In this document: piece by piece, positions 20,855 to 34,779 of the stretch
Layout of the letters: each line of letters starts with the position of its first letter
How positions within the stretch are numbered: the first letter of the stretch is position 1
Assembly (NCBI GenBank): GCA_028280575.1
Contig: JANQLN010000020.1
Coordinates: 1 to 41,878 of the forward strand
Direction: 5' to 3'
DNA: 41,878 bases
Source of the DNA: Clostridia bacterium
GTDB lineage: Bacteria; Bacillota; Clostridia; Acetivibrionales; STF1-152
Notes under the pieces: model-generated
What the model saw: the letters and a program-made list of their open reading frames with translations, nothing else
What the model was told of the DNA's origin: nothing
Database searches by the model: none
Made by a program: the position numbers and the translations under genes

Positions 20855-22267
20855 CTAATATTCAGCAGTTTGGTTTATTTTTCTAAAACACACCTGCTGC
20901 AATTTTTTTATCATGCGATGCTGCATATCAAGAACAACACTCTTATATTCTTCTTTGTTAACTATATTAAAAAACTCTTCCGGGTCTTTTTTAAGGTCAT
21001 ACAATATTTCATTACCATCCGTATCTGTGTAATACTTGTAATCGGCAGTTCTTATGGTAGTGCCTCTTAAGCCTGCGGGATTAAACATGTCCACCATAAT
21101 TTCTTCTTTATGAAACCTGGTTTTGGAAGTCATAAGCTTGCGCAGGCTCATACCCTGCATACTTACAGGCTGCTGTATGGAACAAAAATCTAAAATGGTC
21201 GGAACAATATCCACCGATTCCACAAGATTTGAAATCTTTTTTTTCCCTTCTATCTTTCCGGGATACCTTATAATCAATGGTACCCTGATAACCTGGTCAT
21301 GCCCTGAAGGACCTTTCTGGATTCTGCCATGGTCACCCAGGTATTCTCCATGGTCGGAAGTAAATATTACAATGGTATCTTCGCGTAATTCCAGTGCATC
21401 CAGTTTTTTCAGCATAGTTCCTATGCAATCGTCTACATGGGAGACCAAAGCTAAATAATATGCTATCACTTTTTTCCAGCGGCTTTGCGGAATATCTTTT
21501 AATCTGTCCTCCCATTGTTCACCAGGTCCAGGTACAGGAATTTTAATTTTATCAATATCTATTTTATCTAAATATGCAGAAGGCGGATTCACCGGCGTGT
21601 GAGGTGCATAAAAGCCTGCAATTGCAAAAAAACGTCTACCTCTGTTTCTTTCGAGGAAGTCACATATCTCCTGTGCCACAAAAGCACTATGGGTAAATGC
21701 TTTATCTCCTTCAAAAATATAAGGTTCATGGGTCTCTCTTGGCATGTCCGAATACTGTGGATGAGCATATCCAAAAGCCGCAGGAGGTAAGGCTGTTCTA
21801 ACCTTAGCCAGCATTTGCGCATCTTTATCAAGGACCCATTTTGAATATGCGTCATCGTAACATCCCGGCTCGTCGGAAACAATCATGGTATCAAAACCAT
21901 AGTCCGGATGCATATCCTGATGCCGCCTGTTAACATGCGGAACAAAATGCAGTTTGCCAATATTTGCTGTATGATAACCATAGGGCTTTAAAATGTTATG
22001 CACCATCTGCTGCTCAACCGGCAGTGGAATGCCGTTTGCTCCAATACCCAAAAAGCCTGGATAACAACCCGAGAGCATGGACATCCTGCTTGGCATGCAA
22101 ACAGGATTTTGCACATAGTGGTGCTCAAAAAGCACTCCTTCTTCTGCAAGCCTGTCTAAATTGGGCGTATATGCAGCTTCATTCCCATAGCATCTTAAGC
22201 TGTCCCATCTTTGCTGATCTGTATATATTATAAGTATATTGGGTCTTTTTAAAGCCTTTTTAACCAT
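20855..22267 (-). CDS. formylglycine-dependent sulfatase, cytoplasmic
   Basis: A type I sulfatase predicted to remove sulfate esters from a carbohydrate. The N-terminal RPNILIIYTDQQRWD (about 8-22) supplies metal ligands. The maturation motif C-M-P-S-R starts at Cys57, the residue oxidised to formylglycine. TSDHGEYLGDHG provides the further metal Asp/His. It has 470 residues with no signal peptide. The ATG at 22267 has GGGGGC ahead; a longer GTG start at 22309 would overlap the preceding GH130 gene. No maturase gene (anSME radical SAM or FGE) is in the window. It sits in the operon after GH130, so imported sulfated oligosaccharides are the likely substrate, by inference. Confidence 0.93.
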   Translation of the reverse strand: MVKKALKRPNILIIYTDQQRWDSLRCYGNEAAYTPNLDRLAEEGVLFEHHYVQNPVCMPSRMSMLSGCYPGFLGIGANGIPLPVEQQMVHNILKPYGYHTANIGKLHFVPHVNRRHQDMHPDYGFDTMIVSDEPGCYDDAYSKWVLDKDAQMLAKVRTALPPAAFGYAHPQYSDMPRETHEPYIFEGDKAFTHSAFVAQEICDFLERNRGRRFFAIAGFYAPHTPVNPPSAYLDKIDIDKIKIPVPGPGEQWEDRLKDIPQSRWKKVIAYYLALVSHVDDCIGTMLKKLDALELREDTIVIFTSDHGEYLGDHGRIQKGPSGHDQVIRVPLIIRYPGKIEGKKKISNLVESVDIVPTILDFCSIQQPVSMQGMSLRKLMTSKTRFHKEEIMVDMFNPAGLRGTTIRTADYKYYTDTDGNEILYDLKKDPEEFFNIVNKEEYKSVVLDMQHRMIKKLQQVCFRKINQTAEY

Positions 22268-22298
22268 TTGCAGCCCCCATATTATTTGCTTTTGATGT

Positions 22299-23321
22299 TT
22301 ACATAACACCTATTTCAGAATCGCCTTTTATGCATTCATTGTTTTCAACAACATAATTTACAATTTCATCAACCGTTGTATAGCAAATCCCTACATAGGT
22401 ATCGGCAGCACCATAGTATATTGCAATTTTCCCTGTATCTGAATCCTGCAGGGCGGCACAAGGAAATACAACATTATCAACAAATCCTCTTTCCTCATAC
22501 CATTCTTCCGGTGTTAAAACAAAACTTTCACAACGGTATTTTACTCTGGATGGCTCATTAATATCCAGGATTGCCGCACCCATACTATATACATATCCGT
22601 TGCATGTCCTGGATACCCCATGATAAAACATAAGCCAGCCGTGTGTGGTTTCTATTGGAGCCGGCCCTCCGCCGATTTTTAATCTTTGCCACCATCCGGC
22701 ACCGCCTCTGCCCATAACATGTCTGTGGTTTCCCCAATATTTCAAATCCGGGCTGTCGGTTACAAAAATATCTCCAAAAGGTGTATGTCCGCTATCACTT
22801 GGCCTTGACAGAAGAACATACATTCCGTCGATTTTTCTTGGAAACAGGACACCATTTCTATTATATGGCAAGAACGGGTTGTCAAGACGTATAATTGTCT
22901 TAAAATCTTTTGTTTTTGCAAGCCCTATGGATGCACCGTAAAAATCGGTGCACCAGATAATATAATACGTATCTTCAACTTTTACCAGCCTTGGATCATA
23001 GGCATACAGAGGTTGAAATAAAACTCCGTTTTCATCAATAAACTCTATTCTCTTTTCATCAATAGCCCATTCAAGGCCATCGTCACTCCATCCCATATGC
23101 AAGTGAGGTCTCCCGTTTATTGTTTCAGCCCTGAACACACCCGCAAATTTTCCTTTATATGGTGCAACAGCACTGTTAAATACCCTGGACACTCCCTTCT
23201 GGGGATTGCGTTTTATAATAGGATTATTTTTATGTCTCCAAACCGGTCCATAGCATTTTTCCGGTTTGTCCTGCCAGGGAATATTAGGCAAGCTTTCTCC
23301 AATAATTTTTACGTGTTTCAT
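22299..23321 (-). CDS. GH130 family glycoside phosphorylase-like enzyme
   Basis: A 340-residue five-bladed beta-propeller enzyme. Features fitting GH130 are NPIIKRNP near residues 33-40, FNSAVAPYKGKF near 48-59, and the propeller core YDPRL at 108-112, whose Asp109 corresponds to the general acid (D in the DPR motif). GWLMFYHGVS, RGFVDNVVFPCA and IYYGAADTYVG follow. Characterised members cleave beta-mannosides by phosphorolysis, giving mannose-1-phosphate; some are hydrolases. No signal peptide, so it acts on imported sugar. AAGGAG precedes the ATG at 23321. It lies between the permeases and the sulfatase, tying mannose-type oligosaccharides to this locus. Confidence 0.9.
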   Translation of the reverse strand: MKHVKIIGESLPNIPWQDKPEKCYGPVWRHKNNPIIKRNPQKGVSRVFNSAVAPYKGKFAGVFRAETINGRPHLHMGWSDDGLEWAIDEKRIEFIDENGVLFQPLYAYDPRLVKVEDTYYIIWCTDFYGASIGLAKTKDFKTIIRLDNPFLPYNRNGVLFPRKIDGMYVLLSRPSDSGHTPFGDIFVTDSPDLKYWGNHRHVMGRGGAGWWQRLKIGGGPAPIETTHGWLMFYHGVSRTCNGYVYSMGAAILDINEPSRVKYRCESFVLTPEEWYEERGFVDNVVFPCAALQDSDTGKIAIYYGAADTYVGICYTTVDEIVNYVVENNECIKGDSEIGVM

Positions 23322-25328: not shown

Positions 25329-26693
25329 TTATTTAAGCCCCTTTTCCTTTCTTGCTCCAGCCCATTTTTCATTTAATTCATCCATAATCTCATCGTATGT
25401 CAAGTCTTTATTTCCAAGTGCTGCTTCTATTATATCCTTTTTAAAGTTTGATTCCCACAGGCCTACTTCAGACAGCTTATCAAGTTCGTCCACCAGGCCT
25501 TCTTCACCCTGCGGCGCAGGATCATCGGTAATCAGAATAACTCCAAGGTCCTGAAAGGCTTTTAAGGTATCGGGAAATGCGGCACCCTTTAATGTAGGAA
25601 TAGCTCCGGAGTCCCGTGCAAATGTAGACTCATCCAAAAACCAATCGATCCATGCTCTTGCAGCTTCCTTATTTTTACTGTTTTTATTTATACCTAGAGC
25701 TTTATCCCCGCCGGAATTGGCATATATTTTGCCGTCCTCATTGGTGTAAGGGAATGGCATGTAACCAACATCCTCCGGGGTATCGCTCAAATCCTTGCAC
25801 TGTTGAATCGCCCATGACCCGAGTACCATAGCAGCAATTTCGCCGTTACCCAATCTGACCTTTGAAGATTCCCAATCCGACGTCATCGGATCCTCCTCAA
25901 CAAGTCCATTTGCTACTGCATCATACATAACCTTATATACAATATAGTGGGGTCTTCCCGGAGAAAAGGGATCATCTATATGAGGCATGCTGATTACATA
26001 ACCTGTATCACCGGCAACCGAAGTTCTATGGCCCTCCCACTGTCCTGCAAGGGGCCAGTCGGCAAAATAATTGGTATAAAGCGGTATGACCTTCGTATTA
26101 TCCCTGATTTTTTTCAAAGTGCCTATAAACTCCTCCGGGGATGAGGGTAGTTCATCTATGCCTGCTTCCTTAAACACACGCTTATTATAAATAATACCAT
26201 TTGCATTACCGAAAGCAGCTATTCCGAATACATCTTCTCCTATGCATTTTTTAGTTCTAATCCAGTTATACTTTTTCTCCATCTCCGAAGCCTTGCCCAG
26301 CACCGTAAAAAAGTCCGGGTAATCCGTCAGGTTTAATTCATCCGGCAATATTAAAGCATCACCATAATCATCTGAGTTCAAGCGCACTCTAATCATACCT
26401 TCATAGTCTGACGCGGTTTCCGTAGATACCTTTATCTCCGGGTACTTTTCATTAAATTGCGCTATGTAGTCCTGCATTAAATTGTCGTCAATGTCCGTAC
26501 GGTTATGAATGTAAGTTATTTCTCCTTTTAGAACATGTTTTTCAGTTGTTTTCGGTCCCTCTTCTCTCTCTTGTACGGTTTCGCCTTCTTTTGTCGTACC
26601 GGTTGTCGCTTCATCTTCCTTCCGGCACCCAACGAATAGCGCAGTCAGTAAAAATGCCGCCAGAACCAATGATAAAATTTTGTTTTTGTTCAT
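25329..26693 (-). CDS. extracellular solute-binding lipoprotein of the sugar importer
   Basis: A 454-residue family 1 (MalE-like) binding protein. The N-terminus is a lipoprotein signal peptide with lipobox F-V-G-C at about residues 20-23 and is followed by a Thr/Glu-rich linker. The mature part has ITYIHNRTDIDDNLMQDYIAQFNEKYPEI and the usual two-lobe pattern (NGIIYNKRVFKEAGI, GEIAAMVLGSWA). It captures oligosaccharide for the two downstream permeases. AGGGGAG precedes the ATG at 26693. The promoter and candidate LacI operator lie just upstream, and the repeat/regulator scar begins about 130 bases away. Confidence 0.94.
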   Translation of the reverse strand: MNKNKILSLVLAAFLLTALFVGCRKEDEATTGTTKEGETVQEREEGPKTTEKHVLKGEITYIHNRTDIDDNLMQDYIAQFNEKYPEIKVSTETASDYEGMIRVRLNSDDYGDALILPDELNLTDYPDFFTVLGKASEMEKKYNWIRTKKCIGEDVFGIAAFGNANGIIYNKRVFKEAGIDELPSSPEEFIGTLKKIRDNTKVIPLYTNYFADWPLAGQWEGHRTSVAGDTGYVISMPHIDDPFSPGRPHYIVYKVMYDAVANGLVEEDPMTSDWESSKVRLGNGEIAAMVLGSWAIQQCKDLSDTPEDVGYMPFPYTNEDGKIYANSGGDKALGINKNSKNKEAARAWIDWFLDESTFARDSGAIPTLKGAAFPDTLKAFQDLGVILITDDPAPQGEEGLVDELDKLSEVGLWESNFKKDIIEAALGNKDLTYDEIMDELNEKWAGARKEKGLK

Positions 26694-26773: not shown

Positions 26774-26824
26774 TACTATTATTTATTATTATATAAATAC
26801 ACTATATTTGTGCAATTTAACAAT

Positions 26825-26959
26825 AAAATTATGCGGTGATAAGTCATGATAAGTGAAGCAGTAAATCCGATACATTTTGTTAGCTAACAAAAAAGCCTTA
26901 GCTTTAGGCTCGTACATAGGGAGGGGTGTATATTTTAACTTTCCCTTACTTGACATAGG
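26825..26959 (+). repeat. promoter-region repeat, left copy (R1)
   Basis: This 135-bp stretch matches 28999-29135 in the same orientation at about 87% by hand alignment (about 16 substitutions and two 1-base gaps). It includes a perfect 14-bp palindrome (26877-26890), a small AGCCT/AGGCT hairpin (26894-26910) and a CGTACATAGGGAG block. The match stops at ACATAGG, just before where the right copy has its -10. It then runs into a fragment of the response-regulator gene. The rest of 26694-27100 is AT-rich spacer without genes. Confidence 0.85.
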
Positions 26960-26962
26960 ACC

Positions 26963-27002
26963 CGGTATTCAACAAAAATAAAAGCCGGAATAACAGTGAC
27001 GT
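26963..27002 (+). pseudogene. 40-nt relic of a YesN-type response-regulator gene
   Basis: These 40 bases match 30113-30152, inside the intact response-regulator gene, at 36 positions (mismatches at 26971, 26982, 26986 and 27000). It directly follows the left promoter repeat. In the intact locus the same two sequences are about 976 bases apart, so an internal deletion removed the -10, the start and the receiver domain of a former copy. No recognisable relic was found between 27003 and 27100. Confidence 0.75.
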
Positions 27003-27100
27003 CATAGAAAAAGATTTTATTTAATTCAATGTATGAAACAAACTTTTATTGTACTTTTTTGTTAGGAGTCCCAGGCAGAAGCCATGTATACAGATTTTCA

Positions 27101-27844
27101 TCATTCCCACTTAAATAGTTTTACTGATAGAGTCGCAAACAGCAGTAATATTCCTCCAAGAACCAGTACTTGAGTAGTGTAATCTGCAATACTGCTGCCA
27201 AGCCAGATACCTTTCATAAGTTCAACTCCATACGTCAGCGGTATTATCTTGGAAATTGATATCAAAGATTCAGGCATCATTTGAAGAGGCATGGTGGCTC
27301 CTGATAAAAACAGCATAGGAAAGTAGATAATATACGCAATCGCAGTAGCTGCCTTTGCATTTTTTGATACCGAGGCTATAAACAAACCAATGGAGAAAAT
27401 ACTTAACAATATTAAGATGAAAGCAGCAATTGCCTGTAAAACATTGCCAAAAAAATGGAGGTTAAAGACTATTTTTGCACATATGAGCAACAAAATCATA
27501 CCTGCAAAGGTGGTAATAGTATTTGCCGCTAACTGTGACAATAAGATTTCCATAGGCTTAACAGGTGTTATCATAAACCTTTTAAGTATTTTTCTATCTC
27601 TATACTGTGCCAGAGTAAGAGGTAATGTCATTATACCTGTCACCGCAATTATCATACAAATATATCCAGGAACTGATGCGTCAACCGCACCAAAACCATC
27701 ATTAAATTCGCTAGGTTCATTTCCATACATCGTTCCAAATAATAAAAGAATCATTACCGGAAAGGCCAGAGCAAAAAACAAAGTCAAAAAATCTCTGCTA
27801 ATTAGCTTCAACTCAACAGTTACAACTTTTGAAAACCTTCTCAT
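27101..27844 (-). CDS. ABC-2 type exporter permease (second exporter)
   Basis: A 247-residue membrane subunit with about six helices in the compact ABC2_membrane layout (no large extracellular loop): SRDFLTLFFALAFPVMILLLFG near the N-terminus, YIIYFPMLFLSGATMP in the fifth-helix region. Its start at 27844 shares one base with the stop of the ATPase gene (TAATG), so the two are translated together. Such ATPase/permease pairs export drugs, peptides or antibiotics. The substrate is not evident, and it is unrelated in sequence layout to the first exporter's permeases. Confidence 0.88.
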   Translation of the reverse strand: MRRFSKVVTVELKLISRDFLTLFFALAFPVMILLLFGTMYGNEPSEFNDGFGAVDASVPGYICMIIAVTGIMTLPLTLAQYRDRKILKRFMITPVKPMEILLSQLAANTITTFAGMILLLICAKIVFNLHFFGNVLQAIAAFILILLSIFSIGLFIASVSKNAKAATAIAYIIYFPMLFLSGATMPLQMMPESLISISKIIPLTYGVELMKGIWLGSSIADYTTQVLVLGGILLLFATLSVKLFKWE

Positions 27845-28758
27845 TATTCAGCTTCCTTCCACTCTTTACCTGTTAGCTTCAAATAGACATCCTCCAGGTT
27901 TGGTCTTATTATGTTTAATTTTTTATACTTCACATTATTTTGCTTAAAAGAGAGAATGATATCTCCAATTGCTTCTTCGTCTTTGAAGTATGCACTAACA
28001 CTGCCATTGCATTTTTCTACCCTGTTAACATTATCTATTTTACCAAGCAGAGATTCAACATCATCATTAGTTTCAAATATTAACTCAGTATCTATGTCTG
28101 CACTCTCAATTACACCATCAACATCATCCATAGCAATAATCTTACCCTCATGGATAATACATATCTTGTCACATAAATACTCTGCTTCTTCCATATAATG
28201 AGTTGTCATGAATACTGTCCTGCCTTCTTGTTGAAGTTCTTTAACACATTGCCACATATCATGCCTGGCACCTGGATCAAGTCCGGTGGTTAACTCATCT
28301 AAGAATATTACCTTGGGGTTTGAAATTAATGCGAGAATTATGGCTATCTTCTGCCTTTGTCCGCCGGAAAGCTCCGAGACATAAGATTTTACTTTATCAG
28401 CCAGACCAAAACGTTTTAGTAGCTTCACATAATCTGTAGGCGTTTTATACATGGTCATGAAAAGATCACACAGTTCATAAACCTTAATTTTATCTTGATA
28501 GGATGTCTCCTGCAGCTGAACTCCTATTTGGTTATAAAGCCTTTCATAGTCAACAGATGGGTCAAGTCCTAATATATTAACGCTTCCGCCATTTCTTTTT
28601 TTCAGGCCTATTATGCACTCTATAGTGGTACTTTTGCCTGCGCCGTTTGGTCCTAACATACCGAATATACAGCCCTCTTCAACTGTAAATGATATATTAT
28701 CCACCGCCAGAACAGATTTATATTGCTTTTTTAAATCTACAACTTCAATTACATTCAT
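27844..28758 (-). CDS. ABC exporter ATP-binding protein (second exporter)
   Basis: A 304-residue ATPase with Walker A GPNGAGKST near residue 38, signature LSGGQRQK near 134, Walker B VIFLDELTTGLDP (Leu replaces the usual Pro after Glu) and TTHYMEEAEYL for the H-loop. The C-terminal extension places it among NatA/CcmA-type multidrug exporters. A GGAG site lies close before the ATG at 28758. Its predicted promoter (28905-28934) is about 150 bases upstream with a dyad in the spacer. The pair sits exactly between the two promoter repeats, suggesting that it was inserted into, or left between, duplicated regulator loci. Confidence 0.92.
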   Translation of the reverse strand: MNVIEVVDLKKQYKSVLAVDNISFTVEEGCIFGMLGPNGAGKSTTIECIIGLKKRNGGSVNILGLDPSVDYERLYNQIGVQLQETSYQDKIKVYELCDLFMTMYKTPTDYVKLLKRFGLADKVKSYVSELSGGQRQKIAIILALISNPKVIFLDELTTGLDPGARHDMWQCVKELQQEGRTVFMTTHYMEEAEYLCDKICIIHEGKIIAMDDVDGVIESADIDTELIFETNDDVESLLGKIDNVNRVEKCNGSVSAYFKDEEAIGDIILSFKQNNVKYKKLNIIRPNLEDVYLKLTGKEWKEAE

Positions 28759-28904
28759 TTAACATACTCCATTATTTTTATCTCCAGTTTGGTCAAGCAA
28801 GCACCCAAAATCATATCACCGGCAATTTATCAAGATTATTTATAATATCTTCTCTTAATTATAGTATTCATAGCAACCACTTCCTGGATTTTTAATATAA
28901 TATT

Positions 28905-28934
28905 ATTATATCATCAGTAAAGTACTGATGTCGA
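28905..28934 (-). promoter_or_regulatory. predicted promoter of the second exporter with a perfect dyad in the spacer
   Basis: On the minus strand TCGACA (28934-28929), 18 bases, TATAAT (28910-28905). The spacer and the edge of the -35 consist of CATCAGTA-AAG-TACTGATG (28912-28930), an 8-bp perfect inverted repeat. This position suits a local repressor or a MerR-type activator. No such regulator gene lies in the window. The rest of 28759-28998 is AT-rich leader and spacer. Confidence 0.5.
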
Positions 28935-28998
28935 ACATTTTTTTGCCTATGGTTATTCATAAACTATATATTTGCATAATCTTTATTATTTGTATTTT

Positions 28999-29135
28999 AA
29001 AATTACATGGTGATGAGTCATGATAGGTGAAACAGTAAAATCCAATACATTCTGTCAGCTGACAAAAAAGCCTTAGCTTTAGGCCCGTACATAGGGAGCG
29101 CTGCATATTTTAACTTGCCCGTACTTGTACATAGG
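28999..29135 (+). repeat. promoter-region repeat, right copy (R2)
   Basis: The counterpart of 26825-26959, lying just upstream of the intact response-regulator gene. Its palindrome TGTCAGCTGACA (29053-29064) differs from the left copy's at symmetric positions, so the dyad symmetry is kept. It runs into the -35/-10 of the regulator promoter. Confidence 0.85.
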
Positions 29136-29144
29136 TGTTATAAT
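29115..29144 (+). promoter_or_regulatory. promoter of the two-component regulator operon
   Basis: TTGCCC (29115-29120), 18-base spacer, TATAAT (29139-29144), about 40 bases before the start codon. The conserved palindrome lies about 50 bases farther upstream, a suitable place for an activator. Confidence 0.6.
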
Positions 29145-29184
29145 CATAAATGTGAAAACACTTTTAGTAAGGGAGCACGTTTGC

Positions 29185-30795
29185 ATGTACAAAGTACTTA
29201 TTGTCGACGACGAGTACCTTATCCGGGAAGGTCTTGCAAAGGAAGTACCGTGGCATGAGATGGGATTTGAAATTTCGGGTACTGCTGCAAACAGCCGGGA
29301 GGCTATTGCCTGTATCGAAAAAATAGTTCCCCATGTGGTGCTTACAGATGTGAAAATGCCGGTAATGGACGGCATAGAGCTTTGTAAAGTGCTCAAATAC
29401 AGGTACCCCCATATCAAAACCGTTATTCTCAGTGGTTATGGAGAATTTGAGTACGCTCAGAAAGCTATTGAGTACAATGTCCATTCATACATTTTAAAAC
29501 CTCTTAATGTAGATGATTTACTGGAGCTTTTCCAAAACATTTATAATGAACTTCAAATACAGAGCAGGGGTGAAAAGAATATAAGCGCATCGGAAGACGG
29601 CCTTAATATCGACAGGGATGAAATGACGGAATATGTATTTTTAAAGCTTTTAAGCAGGGAATTTAATGATTATGCCAGGTGTGGAGAAGAACTTGCTAAA
29701 GTAGGGTTTGACGCCAAAAACAAGTATTACTGTATAATGGCTTTCAGCTACAGCAATATTGAGAAAAAAGCTGACGGGAAGACATCGTCCGAAAGCCTGC
29801 TTCGGCTTGCTAAATGCTGCTTAAGACAATCAGGCTTTGAAGCTTTATATCTGGACGGCATATTTTATATTGTCATATGCTCTGATAAACCGATAGCTCA
29901 AAGAGATCAGAACCATTTTTCAAAGAAATTCAAAGACTTTATGGAAGAAAAACTGAACATTGGAGATACCGGCGGGACAAATATTATAAGCATGGGTGTG
30001 AGCAGTGTGTGCAGGGATCTGGCACAGTTAAGACACTCTGCTGATGAAGCGGCTGCCGCATTAAACTATAGGTATTACTCCGGAGAGGGCAGTGTAATTT
30101 TCTATAAGGAGTCGGTATTCGACAAAAATAAGAGCTGGAATAACAGTGAAGTGGAAACTGCTGTTAATAATATCTCCGCAGGTCTTTTAAACAATTGCTC
30201 ATATACCGTGGTTTCAACCTTGAAAGGTCTGTTTTCTTATTTATCATCAGTGAATATCCTGGATAAAAACAGGCTCCATATAAAATTTATACAGATATAT
30301 TCTGCCATAGCTGCAGAAATAAAGAAAGAGTATATTTTCATTACCGTTTTGACTGAAGATGAATTTTATAACAGGATTTCAGGCTGTGAGACCTTTAAAA
30401 AGCTTGAAGATTTATTTAAGGATGCTGTCCTTGAAATTGAAGCTCAGATAAAGGACTATAACCTGACCAGTTATAAATACCGGTTTATTCAGAAGGTAAA
30501 AAGATATATTGACTCCAATTATTCCGACAGACTTTCGCTGGACCGGCTTTCCCGGGATTTTTTTATAAATTCTACGTATCTTAGCAGAATTTTCAAAGAG
30601 GAAGCAGATGAAAACCTTTCGGATTACATTTTGAGTGTTCGCATGGAAAATGCAAAAAGGATGTTGAATACATCGGACGCAAAGGTGCAGGACATATCAA
30701 AGCAGGTAGGATATGTAGATTACAGGCACTTTTGTACTGTTTTTAAAAAGGTAACGGGCATGACGCCTCTTCAATATAGAATTAAGTCCGTATGA
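29185..30795 (+). CDS. YesN-type response regulator with AraC DNA-binding domain
   Basis: A 536-residue cytoplasmic regulator. Residues 1-120 are a receiver domain (acidic pocket Asp9/Asp10, phosphoacceptor Asp55 in LTDVKMP, Lys105 in YILKPLN). The middle of about 300 residues is the variable YesN region. The last 100 are an AraC-type double helix-turn-helix (LSLDRLSRDFFINSTYLSRIFK and ISKQVGYVDYRHFCTVFKK spanning it, ending GMTPLQYR). The start is the ATG at 29185, nine bases after AAGGGAG; an upstream in-frame start at 29125 covers the promoter. It is followed at 23 bases by its kinase and likely activates the sugar genes from 33679 onward. Confidence 0.95.
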   Translation: MYKVLIVDDEYLIREGLAKEVPWHEMGFEISGTAANSREAIACIEKIVPHVVLTDVKMPVMDGIELCKVLKYRYPHIKTVILSGYGEFEYAQKAIEYNVHSYILKPLNVDDLLELFQNIYNELQIQSRGEKNISASEDGLNIDRDEMTEYVFLKLLSREFNDYARCGEELAKVGFDAKNKYYCIMAFSYSNIEKKADGKTSSESLLRLAKCCLRQSGFEALYLDGIFYIVICSDKPIAQRDQNHFSKKFKDFMEEKLNIGDTGGTNIISMGVSSVCRDLAQLRHSADEAAAALNYRYYSGEGSVIFYKESVFDKNKSWNNSEVETAVNNISAGLLNNCSYTVVSTLKGLFSYLSSVNILDKNRLHIKFIQIYSAIAAEIKKEYIFITVLTEDEFYNRISGCETFKKLEDLFKDAVLEIEAQIKDYNLTSYKYRFIQKVKRYIDSNYSDRLSLDRLSRDFFINSTYLSRIFKEEADENLSDYILSVRMENAKRMLNTSDAKVQDISKQVGYVDYRHFCTVFKKVTGMTPLQYRIKSV

Positions 30796-33678: not shown

Positions 33679-34779
33679 ATGGCAATTACAAAATATTTAT
33701 CCGGAGAATCTGACTTTTTTAAAGGCAGGAGGGGACGATTGAAAAGGTATCTTGTTTGTTCAATGCAGGGTTACTTTCCCGTACTTGTGAAGACCGGCCC
33801 CCAATCTCTTGCAGTAATATATAGAACCGGTGGAACCCATGTCAGTATATCCGCTACCCTTGCTGTTTCAACTTCTGGTGACGGTGGAAAGAGCTGGTCC
33901 GATCCTGTGGAAATAACTCCTAGATGGGAGGACGCAAGGAATCCTGCATTTGGGGTGAATGACAGCGGCGAACTTGTTGCAGCTTTCTGGAAGGCCGAAC
34001 AGGCATATGGCCTCTGTGATGGAAAGATTGTATGGGCAGGCAGTGAAAAGCGTAAAAAAGCGAGAGGCAAAATGAGCAGTTATACAACAATAAGCTCCGA
34101 CAGCGGAAGGACATGGAGTGAGCCGGTGCCTTTTGAATTAAAAAATATCAAGTGGGGTTCTCCCTACGGCAGGATTGTAAATGCCCCCGACGGGACAATG
34201 CTTATGAGCTTTTACGGAGTCGAGGAGGGTGACGGGTCCGGAGAAGGAAACACAATCTGTATAATAAGAAGTAAAGACGGGGGAATAACTTGGGGGGACG
34301 AGTCCATAGTGGCCCGGGGTTTTAATGAAACCTCTTTTGCTTTTATGGCTGACGGCGCTCTTGTGGCCTCAGCCAGGAGTATGGGGGGCTTTGTTTCCGT
34401 TCTTTTCAGCAAGGATAACGGTTACAGCTGGAGCGGACCGGAGCAGATAACACGCAAATCTGAGCACCCGGCTGACCTGACATTGCTGCAAAGCGGCAAA
34501 CTTCTTATGACATACGGGAGAAGGTTAAGGCCAATGGGGTGCGGTGCCCTGGTAAGTGAAGATAGTGGTAAGACATGGAATACGGATACTGAAGTGCTTC
34601 TTGCAGGTGACGGGATTAAAAATACGGACCTCGGGTACCCTTCCACAGTGCAGCTGGATGACGGGACTATTGTGACCGTCCTGTACTATGCAAGCGGCTC
34701 GGAGATGTCGGACGGTCACCGCGGCTGGGGAGACGTTTCATGTCAGGCTATACACTATGGCGAAAAAAATATCTCTTGA
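33679..34779 (+). CDS. BNR/Asp-box repeat protein, sialidase-like fold
   Basis: A 366-residue beta-propeller protein. Five Asp boxes (S-x-D-x-G-x-[TS]-W or close variants) are visible: SGDGGKSW, SSDSGRTW, SKDGGITW, SKDNGYSW and SEDSGKTW. This is the sialidase-superfamily fold. I do not see the Arg-Ile-Pro motif of classical GH33 sialidases (YRTGG stands in that region), so the activity may not be sialidase. No signal peptide, so it acts on imported sugar. GGAGGG lies upstream of the ATG. A TATACT at 33651-33656 without a proper -35 suggests an activator-dependent promoter. First gene of the second sugar-uptake set. Confidence 0.85.
   Translation: MAITKYLSGESDFFKGRRGRLKRYLVCSMQGYFPVLVKTGPQSLAVIYRTGGTHVSISATLAVSTSGDGGKSWSDPVEITPRWEDARNPAFGVNDSGELVAAFWKAEQAYGLCDGKIVWAGSEKRKKARGKMSSYTTISSDSGRTWSEPVPFELKNIKWGSPYGRIVNAPDGTMLMSFYGVEEGDGSGEGNTICIIRSKDGGITWGDESIVARGFNETSFAFMADGALVASARSMGGFVSVLFSKDNGYSWSGPEQITRKSEHPADLTLLQSGKLLMTYGRRLRPMGCGALVSEDSGKTWNTDTEVLLAGDGIKNTDLGYPSTVQLDDGTIVTVLYYASGSEMSDGHRGWGDVSCQAIHYGEKNIS

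Follow-up and report, generated by a model that had tools for sequence, protein, structure and literature searches.

The genome of this Clostridia bacterium carries an ABC-2 exporter with a similar stretch of about 135 bp of non-coding DNA on either side, and the question raised by the locus is what the two stretches are and how they came to flank the exporter. The window analyzed was the whole 41,878-nucleotide stretch of contig JANQLN010000020.1, and the features discussed below are listed in Table 1.

Table 1 Features of the repeated segment, the exporter and the intact regulator gene
Feature	Position	Strand	Evidence
Left YesN upstream-region copy, decayed	26824..26959	+	87 % identity to 28998-29135; without -10 box
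YesN coding-sequence remnant (about residues 308-323)	26957..27002	+	87 % identity to 30107-30152; 0/500 shuffles
ABC-2 exporter permease, between the copies	27101..27844	-	Pfam PF01061, 3.9e-28
ABC exporter ATPase, between the copies	27844..28758	-	Pfam PF00005, 2.4e-26
Right intact copy, YesN/YesM operon upstream region through -35 box	28998..29135	+	BLASTN match; promoter TTGCCC-18-TATAAT
YesN-type response regulator, intact, homologue of the remnant	29185..30795	+	Pfam PF00072, PF12833 (receiver and AraC HTH)

The repeated upstream block

In BLASTN the left block (26824-26959) and the right block (28998-29135) are identical in 120 of 138 columns (87 %) on the same strand, with two single-base gaps and an E-value of 1e-43 in the pairwise alignment and of about 1e-39 in the genome-wide search. 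The global alignment score of the two blocks is 200, and dinucleotide shuffles scored -2.9 +/- 9.3, with 0 of 500 reaching 200. The first-pass annotation had described a same-orientation repeat of ~135 bp at about 87 % identity, which these figures bear out, and had considered that the identity might be no better than AT-rich background, which the shuffles contradict. Upstream of 26824 and 28998 the similarity does not rise above the AT-rich background (93 of 500 shuffles do as well), and a longer upstream homology suggested by a 203-column low-stringency alignment was rejected, the alignment outside the core being no better than AT-rich shuffles.

The left block is located upstream of the divergent sugar-binding-protein gene (25329-26693), in the interval that separates this gene from the end of the exporter, and the right block is located directly upstream of YesN and YesM; both placements, and that of the exporter genes (27101-27844 and 27844-28758) between the copies, agree with the first-pass annotation. 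The right block extends just as far as the -35 box of the promoter TTGCCC-18-TATAAT at 29115-29144, which is a consensus match and not a mapped start, and the -10 box (29139-29144) lies just past the end of the repeat. This extent makes it most likely that the block is the control region upstream of YesN. The 18 differences between the copies are evenly spread over the block and leave no protected core, the longest runs with zero, one or two differences having p values of 0.49, 0.28 and 0.45 against random placement.

A piece of YesN coding sequence beside the left block

The left match runs on into the YesN coding sequence, which the first-pass annotation missed. A second match begins in the last three bases of the left block, where 46 nt (26957-27002) correspond to 30107-30152 on the same strand with 87 % identity, and 0 of 500 shuffles were as good. 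Positions 30107-30152 fall inside the YesN gene, about 310 codons in. In the left copy the YesN upstream region is followed directly by this internal piece of the gene, and the 971 bp of the intact locus that lie between them on the right (29136-30106) are missing, including the -10 box, the ribosome-binding site, the start codon and the receiver domain. An AGG read from the sequence at the joint is common to both ends, and short matches of this kind are frequent sites of bacterial deletions. Downstream of 27002 and 30152 homology is not detectable (137 of 500 shuffles scored equally well).

In the YesN reading frame, the fragment is KDPVFNKNKSRNNSD compared with KESVFDKNKSWNNSE in the intact gene, and of the six base differences five alter the amino acid. 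Relatives are too variable in the YesN linker to polarize these differences, so that the changed copy is not assignable from them, and no outgroup is close enough to polarize the evenly spread differences of the left copy as a whole. The amino-acid changes look like those of a functionless remnant, though 46 nt is no test.

These observations make it very probable that the left copy is what remains, without function, of a second and incomplete YesN gene together with its promoter region. The internal YesN fragment directly adjoins the promoter copy, shares its strand and matches with the same identity, and the homology ends sharply at both outer sides, as it should for a duplicated segment with fixed limits. 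Although the coding fragment measures no more than 46 nt, its adjacency and E-value make a chance match very unlikely. As in a pseudogene, similarity to a functional gene extends beyond the non-coding part, through the fragment, and the elements needed for expression (-10 box, ribosome-binding site and ATG, within the missing 971 bp) have been lost; the remnant would be silent. The earlier suggestion that the regulator locus was once duplicated gains strength from the internal YesN fragment adjoining the left promoter copy.

Copy number and dispersal

Exactly two copies of the promoter block, and likewise of the YesN fragment, are detectable in the 4.35-Mb genome. Short, non-coding, repeated DNA of this kind might be a small dispersed element resembling a MITE, and the first-pass annotation had named a high-copy dispersed element as the finding that would overturn its reading. 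The two-copy count rules this out in the present genome, and searches of other genomes added no copies: there was none in 39 relatives and none in 390 other genomes of the class apart from a weak 26-nt match (E 5e-4). Moreover, no terminal inverted repeats were found bounding the block, and the block continues into YesN coding sequence, which leaves the dispersed element with next to no credibility. The repeat was also not found among the plasmids searched, and no repeated DNA was found between the operons beyond the YesN 5' sequence. The repeat is best read as a two-copy scar of ordinary bacterial genome wear, and not as a mobile element or a new type of regulatory signal.

The flanking sugar operons

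The operon on the right contains YesN, YesM, a BNR-repeat protein, two permeases and a binding protein, and has a full counterpart in a distant relative, G030, with 56-81 % identity. The YesN orthologue in G030 is 57 % identical and the operon order is the same; the contig stops 207 bp upstream of YesN, and the presence of the exporter there is not visible. The intact right copy is a two-component sugar regulator of the YesN/YesM type (compare XydS/R, PMC3572039) and adjoins a sugar ABC transporter operon; the left copy has no second functional regulator. The BNR-repeat protein gene (33679-34779) has a G+C content of 49 % and a GC3 of 48 %, clearly above the rest of the window.

The operon on the left has a LacI-type regulator gene of its own, which is found with it in relatives too. 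Five further genomes of the order contain counterparts of its transport and LacI genes, and three of the five also have a close GH130 gene; in none of these five is YesN divergent to the binding protein. Between the GH130 and LacI genes of the left operon is a sulfatase-family gene (20855-22309), hinting at a sulfated mannoside-type substrate.

The two operons encode different binding-protein and enzyme families. Because G030 and the left-operon counterparts show separate conserved neighbourhoods, the two are separate units and not duplicates, and only the YesN 5' segment is shared. It had been proposed that the exporter entered between two related loci; its position between the copies and its occurrence elsewhere as a free-standing cassette are in keeping with this, but the sugar operons on either side are not duplicates of each other.

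Tests for a retained control signal

The block has no Rfam match, even with a permissive threshold, and folds of both strands of both copies are no more stable than shuffles (z-scores 0.06 to 1.60); a structured cis-regulatory RNA was rejected on these grounds. The block contains a palindrome, TTTTGTTAGCTAACAAAA in the left copy and TTCTGTCAGCTGACAAAA in the right, and its motif (TNTGTYAGCTRACANA) occurs genome-wide in the two copies only. A shared regulon operator was rejected, as the palindrome is absent from other promoters in the genome.

The left copy might still have been retained as a YesN binding site through which phosphorylated YesN would act in addition on the operon of the divergent sugar-binding-protein gene. 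That operon's own promoter-like site (TTGACT-17-TATAAT, 26773-26745), a good consensus match outside the block, has its -35 box about 50 bp downstream of the left copy, and the palindrome TGTYAGCTRACA has been kept in both copies via a paired T-A to C-G change. One paired change among 18 differences is, however, weak evidence of retention; the differences are evenly spread with no protected core, a palindrome found nowhere else in the genome marks no wider regulon site, and the left operon already has the LacI-type regulator that accompanies it in relatives. Retention as a YesN site is on this evidence highly unlikely.

Each copy contains, on the minus strand, one and the same hairpin followed by a T tail, at 26911-26893 and at 29086-29068, and the position of the left one is that expected of an exporter terminator. 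In a second possible use, which would be compatible with the origin of the left copy as a remnant, this hairpin would terminate exporter transcription and shield the sugar operon. It is the sole terminator-like site between the exporter stop at 27101 and the sugar-binding-protein gene, and its orientation is right. However, terminator-like sites are no commoner than in shuffles (2 vs 1.5 +/- 1.2), the folds are not better than those of shuffles, and the right copy has the same hairpin although no gene ends before it there, which together make a terminator function unlikely. Reuse of the regulator-gene remnant as a control element of either kind, as a YesN site tying the left sugar operon to the right or as an exporter terminator, is similarly improbable, with no positive evidence for either use apart from position.

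The exporter and the origin of the arrangement

The exporter pair is rare in the order, being present in 3 of 58 genomes including the present one. The closest relatives detected come from two other families of the class; their permeases are 61-65 % identical, and they adjoin unrelated genes at unrelated loci, the exporter being a free-standing cassette in other genomes. The G+C content of the exporter genes (36 %, GC3 32 %) is within the range of the window. No close plasmid relative was found, the nearest exporters in the plasmid collection being only 33-35 % identical, and a plasmid origin of the exporter was rejected for want of such a relative.

If the left copy is a YesN remnant, as is preferred here, one duplication or single-crossover integration would have left the exporter between two same-orientation copies of a ~1.15-kb segment, which runs from 28998 to 30152 or beyond. 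The left copy would then have lost 971 bp at the short AGG match and drifted, and the right copy would have stayed a working regulator. Because the internal YesN fragment adjoins the left promoter copy, the duplicated unit would have been at least 1.15 kb long and have reached into the gene. A divergence of 13 % is large for a recent tandem duplication, and for this reason either an old duplication or a second copy from a divergent relative would be indicated. Neither an empty site nor a full duplicate was found in the related genomes searched, and the event itself was not seen; an empty-site scan of the genome contigs gave only an unrelated match. No other member of the genus was among the genomes searched, and the sole further family member found, small and 88 % complete, matched neither the YesN gene nor the repeat.

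By one route, which is a sub-case of the remnant explanation and whose probability overlaps with it, the exporter would have arrived on circular DNA together with a piece of the YesN region, and one crossover of the Campbell type would have made the direct flanking copies. The copies are direct and flank the exporter exactly, both matches stop where a fragment of that kind would, and the rarity of the exporter in the order and its relatives at unrelated loci in other families are consistent with this route. No plasmid or integrase trace was found, however; the exporters in the plasmid collection are distant, the repeat is absent from plasmids and the exporter composition does not stand out from the window, and this route is accordingly judged possible but rather doubtful. 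By the alternative route, the exporter and the 5' part of YesN would have been duplicated in tandem and the outer exporter copy then lost. Single-crossover integration needs fewer steps than tandem duplication plus loss, and the latter rests on a well-documented process, short-junction tandem duplication (PMC3486894). No closely related genome with an empty site was found that would favour one of the two routes over the other. The evidence suggests that the exporter is either a later neighbour of the YesN operon or was shared in the YesN duplication, and it need not belong to either sugar pathway.

A short-junction tandem duplication of 1210 bp at the sigH locus of Staphylococcus aureus yields partial or chimeric gene copies (PMC3486894). 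As there, a segment of similar size with part of a regulatory gene is present here as a direct duplicate with a short-repeat joint. The sigH duplicate is fresh and reversible and makes an active fusion protein, whereas the copies described here have diverged by 13 % and are separated by an exporter, and the additional one lacks both an internal stretch and a start. In the loss of promoter core and start, the internal deletion at a short match and the even spread of differences, the left copy resembles an ordinary bacterial pseudogene remnant, from which it differs only in flanking an exporter cassette. The locus has little significance beyond this genome. It illustrates clearly that a repeated upstream region may resemble a shared regulatory signal and yet be what a partial gene duplication has left behind, recognizable by a short piece of coding sequence attached to the end of the repeat.

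Downstream of the exporter, a 40-nt intergenic stretch at 27022-27061 (TAATTCAATGTATGAAACAAACTTTTATTGTACTTTTTTG) has one further genomic copy, 90 % identical and also intergenic, at C5:23125-23164 (L040 1501-1540), and a degenerate pattern of the stretch matches these two places only. The neighbours of the second copy are ZIP-like transporter-type and CobD/CbiB-like genes, named by eye.
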